Assembly (NCBI RefSeq): GCF_009601705.1
Contig: NZ_CP045687.1
Coordinates: forward strand, 1,772,001-1,836,000
Source: Sulfolobus sp. E5-1-F
Lineage (GTDB): Archaea > Thermoproteota > Thermoprotei_A > Sulfolobales > Sulfolobaceae
Length of the DNA: 64,000 nt
Reading direction: 5' to 3'
Shown: in pieces, positions 6,292-42,148 of the stretch
Layout of the letters: every line of letters begins with the position of its first letter
How positions within the stretch are numbered: position 1 is the stretch's first letter
Notes under the pieces: model-generated
Seen by the model: the letters and a program-made list of their open reading frames with translations, nothing else
Database searches by the model: none
What the model was told of the DNA's origin: nothing
Position numbers and translations under genes: made by a program

Positions 6292-6340
6292 TCAGACGGG
6301 TAAGTTGTCTTCACCACTCCATGTGGTCCCTTATCATCAC
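6292..6340 (-). ncRNA. C/D-box 2'-O-methylation guide sRNA (candidate sR-A)
   Basis: Read on the minus strand from 6340: box C GTGATGA (6334-6340), 12-nt guide TAAGGGACCACA, box D' variant TGGA (6318-6321), 3-nt spacer, box C' variant GTGAAGA (6308-6314), 12-nt guide CAACTTACCCGT, box D CTGA (6292-6295). Total 49 nt. Two equal 12-nt guides with this box order are the hallmark of archaeal box C/D sRNAs, which assemble with L7Ae, Nop5 and fibrillarin. It lies in the gap between the DUF72 gene and proC, on their strand. By the N+5 rule the guides would methylate the fifth base of TGTGG... and ACGGG... targets. Targets were not identified. Confidence 0.8.
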
Positions 6341-40030: not shown

Positions 40031-41006
40031 CTCCTTTTTCGGATATAATTTCATTTATGATATGAATTAATTCCATAACATCATCCTTTAAACCTATCCT
40101 TGCATGAGTATGCCTTAACCCTAAAAAGTTACTAGCATCCCTAATATAGCATTTGCATCTTCTAATTAGTTCATCATTAATTAAGCTAGAGGGAATCTCA
40201 AATTCCACCAAGAAAAATGGCGCATGGGATTTGTACATTTTGAACAACTTCTTCATATTTTCTAATTTATCATAAATTTCCTTCACTTTACTTCTACTAA
40301 TCGCAAAGAAAGACCTCACTTCCTTAGGATTTAAGTTAGATATAACATAATAGGTTATGGAGTTAATTCGCCAAATTGGAGCAAGTCTTTCCAATTCCTT
40401 ACTCTTATGTCCTATTGAAAAACCGAATCTTAAACCCGGAATTGCAAGACTCTTCGTAAATGAGTTTATAATCGTTAAATTAGAGAATTCATTAACTAGT
40501 CTAGACGCACTTTCCGCCAAGCTTATATCGATAAACGATTCATCTAAAACAAGTTCGTTGTTCTTATCTTTAAGAAAGTTCTCAATTTCATGCAATTTGA
40601 TAACGGATCCAGTAGGATTATTTGGATTGCTAGTTATTATTCGACCTGGCCTTAATTTGAAAACAAATTCGTCTTCATGCTCCTCAGCAAAATAATAGCT
40701 ACGAAATTTATATTCACTATAATTTGGCTGTGGAACAGTAAAGTTCTCATCAAGCAGATTAATAATCTCGGAAGCACCATTAAATATCCCTACTAAATCT
40801 TCATTGACTCCGTAAATTTCCCCAATTACACTTTTTATCTCTCTAAGACTTTGAGGAGGATAATACGTGTATATTTTAAGCTTAACAGCTTCATTGATCA
40901 ATTCTTCAACGAACTTAGGAACACCTAATGGATTAAGATTTACACTATAATCTTTGATGTCTAAAGCAGGTTTCCCATTTCTCCATGGATATCCTCCATG
41001 TTTCAT
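40005..41006 (-). CDS. PLP-dependent aminotransferase-like protein, CobD/HisC type
   Basis: 333 aa. Fold-type I PLP enzyme: 'HGGYPWR' and 'DYSVNLNPLGVP' at the N terminus match threonine-phosphate decarboxylase CobD; 'NPNNPTGS' (about 131-138), the PLP lysine in 'NSFTKSLAIPGLRFGFSIG' (about 185-205) and an Arg near 'ARIGLKD' close the site. CobD makes aminopropanol phosphate for the lower-loop of cobalamin. Histidinol-phosphate aminotransferase is the main alternative. Overlaps the upstream HTH gene by 4 bp. Confidence 0.83.
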   Translation of the reverse strand: MKHGGYPWRNGKPALDIKDYSVNLNPLGVPKFVEELINEAVKLKIYTYYPPQSLREIKSVIGEIYGVNEDLVGIFNGASEIINLLDENFTVPQPNYSEYKFRSYYFAEEHEDEFVFKLRPGRIITSNPNNPTGSVIKLHEIENFLKDKNNELVLDESFIDISLAESASRLVNEFSNLTIINSFTKSLAIPGLRFGFSIGHKSKELERLAPIWRINSITYYVISNLNPKEVRSFFAISRSKVKEIYDKLENMKKLFKMYKSHAPFFLVEFEIPSSLINDELIRRCKCYIRDASNFLGLRHTHARIGLKDDVMELIHIINEIISEKGVKSTRTLG

Positions 41007-41587
41007 AGTTCTCTCTCTTCAAAATACGCCGTAATTACATTCTTTTCGGCTCTCCTTATAATCTCACTTAGGCTTGATGGACTAATGTTGAGCTTTTTAG
41101 CTAAGTCTTTCAATCCTATTCTTCTAGGATAGTCGAAAAATCCAGCTTCTAATGCTATTCTTAATATTTGTTCCTGCCGTGCAGTTATTGCGTCCTTCTT
41201 TTCAGCTTTCACAACTTTTAAAACTCTAACCTCTTTTGTAATGCTTATTAACGAATTAAGTAAATCCCTCAGCTCCGTGTAACCATTTAATATCAAAGTC
41301 CATAAGATTCCGTCATCTGTTAATGCACCGTTCATTATAATATATTGAGACAAGATCTTAATGAATTCAGTTGATATGTAATTTGTACAAATAAATTTAT
41401 ACTTGGAAACCTTGATAGGTTCTTCACAAACTTGCTTAGCGTTATTCTCGTCCCCGCGTACTTCAATTAGTAGCTTGCCTTTCTCTCCATCAACCCTTAT
41501 ATCGAGAATGTTAACTGTAACCTTATTAGCAATAACTTCTGGAAACTGAAGTAAATTAGGAGTTTTTATTACGACGTATAACAGCAT
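41003..41587 (-). CDS. HTH-10 (bacterioopsin-activator type) regulator
   Basis: 194 aa. C-terminal HTH: 'LTARQEQILRIALEAGFFDYPRRIGLKDLAKKLNISPSSLSEIIRRAEKN' in shape, here as 'TARQEQILRIALEAGFFDYP' followed by 'LKDLAKKLNISPSSLSEIIR'. The N-terminal ~130 residues are an alpha/beta sensor of unknown ligand. Its stop overlaps the cobD-like ATG, so it probably regulates this gene or the cobamide pathway. Confidence 0.82.
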   Translation of the reverse strand: MLLYVVIKTPNLLQFPEVIANKVTVNILDIRVDGEKGKLLIEVRGDENNAKQVCEEPIKVSKYKFICTNYISTEFIKILSQYIIMNGALTDDGILWTLILNGYTELRDLLNSLISITKEVRVLKVVKAEKKDAITARQEQILRIALEAGFFDYPRRIGLKDLAKKLNISPSSLSEIIRRAEKNVITAYFEEREL

Positions 41588-41641
41588 TACATAATTACCT
41601 CTAAACTTATACTACTTAAACTTATCTACTAACAATTAAAT

Positions 41642-41691
41642 TCAGCACTCAAGACCTTCATTCACCTTTCATAAACTACGAGGCTCATCAT
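41642..41691 (-). ncRNA. C/D-box 2'-O-methylation guide sRNA (candidate sR-B)
   Basis: Minus strand from 41691: box C ATGATGA (41685-41691), guide GCCTCGTAGTTT (12 nt), box D' variant ATGA (41669-41672), spacer AAGG, box C' TGAATGA (41658-41664), guide AGGTCTTGAGTG (12 nt), box D CTGA (41642-41645). 50 nt. It lies 68 bp downstream of tRNA-Gly on the same strand, so it may share the transcript or have its own promoter. By N+5 the guides would direct methylation of the U in AAACU and the second C in CACTC targets. No target in this window. Confidence 0.82.
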
Positions 41692-41755
41692 CAAGAGAAC
41701 TATTACCTTACAAATAATTCAAGTCATGCAAAAAGAGGATAAGTATTAAAAATAT

Positions 41756-41835
<80 letters not shown>

Positions 41836-42075
41836 ACTGTTTAATAATGAGAGTAGGAAGGTATTTATTTTTTTCCTTTTGGTAATCAGCTTCTCATTAC
41901 TTTTAATCTAAGTTATTTGGGTAGAGGGTTAGCAAAAGTATACGCTATTAAGTAAGCTCACTGTAAGTTAGTAATATTAGAGGATAATAGAAAAATATAT
42001 AAAAGGAACTTTGAATCAATATAAATTTTATATCCAAAAAAGTAAGGAAGAACAAAATAGAAGTTAGCTTGAAGG
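41836..42075. other. Spacer between tRNA genes
   Basis: 240 bp, AT-rich. It contains the tRNA-Gly promoter at its left end. No ORF above 25 codons and no complete C/D motif set; TAATGAG and CTGA occur near 41885-41895 but without the right spacing. Confidence 0.4.
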
Positions 42076-42148
42076 TAGCCGGGCAGGGATTCGAACCCTG
42101 GTCCCAGGGGCCAAAGCCCTGGATCCTTGACCACTAGACTACCCGGCT
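42076..42148 (-). tRNA. tRNA-Gln (anticodon TTG)
   Basis: 73 nt, no intron, no encoded CCA. Acceptor AGCCGGG/CCCGGCT with A73; D arm GTCTAGTGGTCAAGGAT; anticodon stem CAGGG/CCCTG around loop CTTTGGC (34-36 = TTG); T arm CAGGGTTCGAATCCCTG. A TATA-like CTTAAATG (about 42172-42179, minus strand) lies about 27 bp upstream. Confidence 0.96.

Follow-up and report, generated by a model that had tools for sequence, protein, structure and literature searches.

The minus strand of the window (the whole 64,000-nt stretch of DNA analysed here) carries at positions 41642-41691 what its architecture, its conservation among sister species and an order-wide family support as a canonical archaeal C/D box sRNA. 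The most likely role of its D guide is to direct methylation of the wobble nucleotide C34 of tRNA-Leu(CAA), and the copy in a sister species (G005) would be released from a tRNA-sRNA precursor. Taken as a whole, this explanation is considered highly probable.

Architecture and conservation of the C/D box sRNA

Archaeal C/D box sRNAs have terminal boxes C (RUGAUGA) and D (CUGA), internal boxes D' and C', and guides of 10-12 nt. Each guide is complementary to rRNA or tRNA, and its target nucleotide lies opposite the fifth nucleotide upstream of box D or D'. Read on the minus strand from 41691 to 41642, the window sequence is ATGATGA GCCTCGTAGTTT ATGA AAGG TGAATGA AGGTCTTGAGTG CTGA, i.e., ATGATGA-12-ATGA-4-TGAATGA-12-CTGA, with 50 nt from box C to box D. 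The terminal boxes, ATGATGA and CTGA, are invariant in six species. The internal boxes, ATGA and TGAATGA, are both non-consensus, as is common for D' and C'; the guides are 12 nt long, the D'-C' spacer is 4 nt, and the D guide is complementary to a tRNA with its target C34 at -5. The sequence-only reading that had called this locus a C/D guide sRNA was reproduced from the window letters in sequence, coordinates, strand and spacings, and its distance of 68 bp to tRNA-Gly was measured as 67-68 nt (ARAGORN, Rfam). The locus comprises the following features:

41642..41691, minus strand: C/D box sRNA, from sequence, Markov-1 simulation and conservation against spacer drift
41685..41691, minus strand: box C, ATGATGA, unchanged across six species of the genus
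41673..41684, minus strand: D' guide GCCTCGTAGTTT, its core CCTCGTAG unchanged throughout the genus; candidate target tRNA-Val(UAC) U34
41669..41672, minus strand: box D', ATGA, non-consensus, invariant in six species
41658..41664, minus strand: box C', TGAATGA, non-consensus and differing in two species
41646..41657, minus strand: D guide AGGTCTTGAGTG; predicted target pre-tRNA-Leu(CAA) ACTCAAGACC, C34 opposite the fifth nucleotide 5' of box D
41642..41645, minus strand: box D, CTGA, identical in six species and included in the order-wide pattern
41692..41759, minus strand: tRNA-sRNA spacer, drifting among sister species
41759..41836 (ARAGORN) or 41760-41835 (Rfam), minus strand: tRNA-Gly(GCC), upstream of the sRNA on the same strand
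41862..41870, minus strand: TATA-like box AAATAAATA of the tRNA-Gly promoter, kept in five species, assigned by inspection
42074-42148: tRNA-Gln(UUG), 237 nt further upstream of tRNA-Gly(GCC) (ARAGORN, Rfam)
41612..41620, minus strand: TATA-like box TTTAAGTAG of the downstream HTH_10 gene, assigned by inspection
41003..41587, minus strand: downstream gene of an HTH_10 domain regulator, beside the sRNA even where an element splits off the tRNA

A strict C/D pattern matched the window once, at 41642-41691, and was absent from 100 Markov-1 simulated windows. An Rfam search returned no C/D family match to the sRNA. The sRNA alone has no stable fold (z -0.54), and folding was dropped as a line of support; C/D sRNAs fold with proteins, and a weak fold of the naked RNA is expected.

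Seven genomes of the genus were compared, including the window's own (G000), and the sRNA is retained in six; in G003 it is missing at the tRNA-Gly locus. Boxes C, D' and D, the D' core CCTCGTAG and the D-guide sequence AGGTCTTGAGT are common to all six sRNA-bearing species, and box C' is degenerate in two of them. Four species (G000, G001, G002 and G006) have tRNA-Gly, spacer and sRNA in one common order. Among these, the sRNA averages 97% pairwise identity and the spacer 72%, the pattern of kept boxes and guides beside a drifting flank for which an alignment had been proposed as a check, though the 54-nt 3' flank is also conserved (96%). This flank is probably conserved because its TATA-like box TTTAAGTAG sits at leaderless-start distance of the HTH_10 gene.

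The family extends across the order. By exact guide pattern, the D guide with box D (GGTCTTGAGTNCTGA) was counted in 135 of 214 genomes, representing 58 of 78 genera, against 1 for the reversed pattern; a search with an sRNA model also gave many partial matches. A box C and a C'-like box stand at the right distance in 108 of the 121 copies read, compared with 0.85 expected from shuffled upstream sequence. D' guides differ among the copies (CTCGG in 69, CCCCGCG in 10, and CTCGTAG in 6, those of the window's own genus), and because they vary the D guide is taken as the fixed part of the family. Among named genomes, an exact-pattern scan also picked up the D guide in records of Desulfurococcaceae and Thermosphaera, as well as in one Archaeoglobaceae record that shows the full C/D architecture. 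Two Sphingobium records and one Clostridia record gave matches lacking a comparable architecture; these look like chance and were set aside. Orthologues in L204, L205, L266 and their relatives have a long D'-C' linker that looks capable of forming a hairpin.

A non-functional C/D-like sequence, decayed or arisen by chance, might account for the degenerate box C' in two species and for the empty tRNA-Gly locus of G003. However, the difference in identity between sRNA and spacer and the existence of the order-wide family make such an origin scarcely credible.

Predicted targets of the two guides

All 46 tRNA genes of the window's own genome were located and read as a target set. The D guide forms 10 Watson-Crick pairs, without mismatch, with the pre-tRNA-Leu(CAA) sequence GACTCAAGACCC, which spans the exon-intron border, and wobble C34 faces the fifth guide nucleotide upstream of box D, the methylation position. 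The precursors of tRNA-Ser(CGA) and tRNA-Leu(UAA) pair nearly as well, with nucleotide 34 likewise at -5, and 20 of 600 shuffled guides reached the same score in the tRNA set. As the score alone is only modestly unusual, the assignment of the target is based on the position of C34 and on conservation: guide and target are kept together, the target sequence being intact in 7/7 species of the genus and the guide in 6 of those. These observations suggest that methylation of C34 in tRNA-Leu(CAA) is the most likely role of the D guide. In the text of PMC7668247 that was available, no mention of Cm34 in Sulfolobales tRNA-Leu(CAA) was found. In G012 (L317) and G033 (L321), tRNA-Leu(CAA) is intron-less and the D guide still reads GGTC, which gives a G:U pair at position 39, a point against the assignment.

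Most C/D sRNAs target rRNA, and the sequence-only reading had proposed a search for both guides there. Because the 16S rRNA of the window's genome and the 5' section of its 23S rRNA read N, the scan covered the visible part of its 23S rRNA together with rRNAs of relatives, with the complete rRNAs of G003 as a proxy, though G003 is the genome without the sRNA at the tRNA-Gly locus. Neither the readable part of the genome's own 23S rRNA nor the rRNAs of G003 and G012 offered a good site for either guide. In G003, the best D-guide match over the methylation position scored 7.5, below the shuffle mean of 8.2. An rRNA target is thus not supported by the sequences scanned and was rejected; the D guide fits tRNA-Leu(CAA) instead. 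A match concealed in the masked 16S and 5' 23S rRNA would suit the usual habit of C/D sRNAs. However, the same scan scored 10 and 8 for a second sRNA of the window on the 23S rRNA of G003, so that it is able to find real sites, and a concealed rRNA target is considered very improbable.

This second C/D box sRNA lies at 6292-6340 on the minus strand between two ORFs and reads GTGATGA ... GTGAAGA CAACTTACCCGT CTGA. Its guides form 10 and 8 Watson-Crick pairs with sites about 33 nt apart in the 23S rRNA of G003, and by this pairing it is a classic, if predicted, rRNA double guide.

The D' guide was compared with the same set of tRNAs. Against tRNA-Val(UAC) it forms eight Watson-Crick pairs and one G:U pair, which place U34 exactly at -5. 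The D' core is invariant in the six sRNA-bearing species of the genus, and a pattern search found the tRNA-Val sequence CTTACGAGG in all six; the same pattern did not find it in five other Sulfolobaceae genomes, which have different D' guides. However, 201 of 600 shuffled guides perform equally well, the three nucleotides adjoining D' are unpaired, and the tRNA-Ser(CGA) intron gives a match of equal score. The pairing with U34 of tRNA-Val(UAC) is suggestive only, and a double wobble guide, with D acting on tRNA-Leu(CAA) C34 and D' on tRNA-Val(UAC) U34, is possible though rather unlikely. A broader proposal combines both guides with the linkage described below: an sRNA derived from the tRNA-Gly precursor would use its fixed D guide to mark C34 of tRNA-Leu(CAA) and a D' guide, re-aimed within the genus, to mark U34 of tRNA-Val(UAC). 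This is regarded as improbable; if true, the processing of one tRNA, tRNA-Gly, would control the decoding marks on two further tRNAs.

Elsewhere in the order, the CTCGG-type D' pattern matched tRNAs of the Glu, Asp and Val types, of which Glu and Asp would require a G:U pair at position 35. Targeting of tRNA-Gly by these D' guides was rejected, as a pattern search of 24 genomes did not find a tRNA-Gly with the anticodon loop needed.

Linkage to the tRNA-Gly gene

The distance between tRNA-Gly and the sRNA differs within the genus, from ~65-73 nt in four species to 6 nt in G005 and 2.4 kb in G004, with the sRNA lost in G003. In G005, box C starts 6 nt (TACAAT) past the mature tRNA end, and the T-runs and the remaining spacer are gone. 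The sRNA lies on the tRNA strand, directly downstream, with no room for a promoter; a separate promoter would have to sit inside the tRNA, and a joint tRNA-sRNA precursor, i.e., a dicistron, is thus nearly forced by the gene order. Cleavage at the tRNA 3' end would leave a 6-nt leader on the sRNA.

In G004, the stretch between tRNA-Gly and the sRNA contains N- and C-terminal pieces of an integrase of SSV type (PF07935, PF16795), along with a degenerate copy of the 3' half of the tRNA, which implies that an element integrated at the tRNA end split the pair. The element, at L045 1917-4527, is a degenerate SSV-type element at the 3' end of tRNA-Gly(GCC). Similar sequence lies behind tRNA-Gly(GCC) in other Sulfolobaceae (L012, L013, L018, L020, L023, L024, L026 and L031) and by inspection resembles the beginning of an SSV-type integrase gene on the opposite strand, suggesting that tRNA-Gly(GCC) is a recurrent integration site.

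The spacer of the window species holds two T5 runs (41748-41752 and 41730-41734) and a weak TATA-like AT stretch at about 41712-41722, which leaves room for either read-through or an own promoter. Cotranscription with the tRNA, as the sequence-only reading had proposed, is accordingly nearly forced in G005 and one of two routes in the window species. A real sRNA with its own promoter in the 68-nt gap, close to tRNA-Gly by chance or because a strongly transcribed gene offers an open site, is given a little under an even chance. The TATA-like stretch recurs ~21-31 nt before box C in four species, the T-runs behind the tRNA may stop read-through in the window species, and the sRNA persists in G004 at 2.4 kb from the tRNA; elsewhere in the order it is unlinked to, or divergent from, a tRNA. 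However, G005 has lost the entire gap yet keeps the sRNA, and the TATA-like stretch is a weak one that stands a little too near box C.

The arrangement in other genera is varied. In genus g5, same-strand copies of the sRNA follow tRNA-Gly(GCC) at distances of 364 and 1349 nt. In genus g10, the sRNA and tRNA-Gly(GCC) are divergent, with 70-254 nt between them in five genomes and 879 nt in one more. By raw counts that include related genomes, a tRNA lies within 300 nt of the sRNA in 18 of 121 copies, always on the 5' side and in 13 of them divergent; the five same-strand cases all belong to the window's own genus. Orthologues across the order (for example L207, L239, L244, L275 and L276) are often divergent from tRNA-Arg or tRNA-Gly genes. 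The 18 tRNAs within 300 nt compare with 12 at 301-1200 nt, which as raw counts is above the outer density.

From the observed sequence, conservation, complementarity and gene order, the following course of transcription, RNP assembly and methylation is proposed. Processing at the 3' end of the tRNA would free the sRNA from the tRNA-sRNA precursor in G005. In the window species, transcription would either run through from the tRNA promoter or start at a weak promoter within the 68-nt gap, and the sRNA, once made, would be trimmed to a protein-protected core. L7Ae, Nop5 and fibrillarin would bind it. The D guide would then pair with tRNA-Leu(CAA) in its anticodon arm, binding best to the intron-containing precursor across the exon-intron border, and this pairing would direct 2'-O-methylation of wobble C34; the genus-specific D' guide may direct methylation of U34 in tRNA-Val(UAC).

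Relation to known systems

Both elements of the proposal have precedents in archaea: tRNA-sRNA dicistrons and guides aimed at the wobble nucleotide of tRNA-Leu(CAA). Such wobble guides are known from Pyrococcus (PMC7994747). The sRNA of the window shares with them the C/D architecture and the predicted target tRNA and nucleotide, a comparison by target only and not by sequence; unlike them, it lies behind tRNA-Gly, and its second guide differs from the guides of relatives.

Dicistrons comprise tRNA-Val-sRNA8 of N. equitans (PMC3491384) and pairs with tRNA-Ser in I. hospitalis and tRNA-Pro in T. tenax (PMC7994747). As in these, a C/D sRNA lies behind a tRNA on the tRNA strand, and release by RNase Z is suggested. 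Unlike them, the pair is known here from the DNA alone, with a 68-nt gap containing T-runs in the window species and a tight gap (6 nt) only in G005. The linkage had been called rarely discussed for Sulfolobales; such dicistrons are described in other archaea (PMC3491384, PMC7994747), and the literature searched yielded no publication on a Sulfolobales sRNA linked to tRNA-Gly. Plant dicistronic tRNA-snoRNA genes (Kruszka 2003, as cited in PMC3491384) similarly place a tRNA and then a C/D guide RNA in one transcript, but they are eukaryotic and the gene pairs are not homologous. In S. acidocaldarius, altering the flanks leaves sRNA maturation intact, and sRNAs often use the promoters of neighbouring genes (PMC7994747, PMC5539422); by analogy, the sRNA of the window fits this picture of flank-tolerant maturation and borrowed promoters.

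These observations provide an unannotated guide RNA with a likely target, and its D guide is widely conserved across the order. Within one genus, the tRNA-sRNA pair runs through a series of states: a gap of ~65-73 nt, a 6-nt fusion, separation by an SSV-type element, and loss. The series makes the dependence of tRNA-linked sRNAs on tRNA transcription and processing directly testable.
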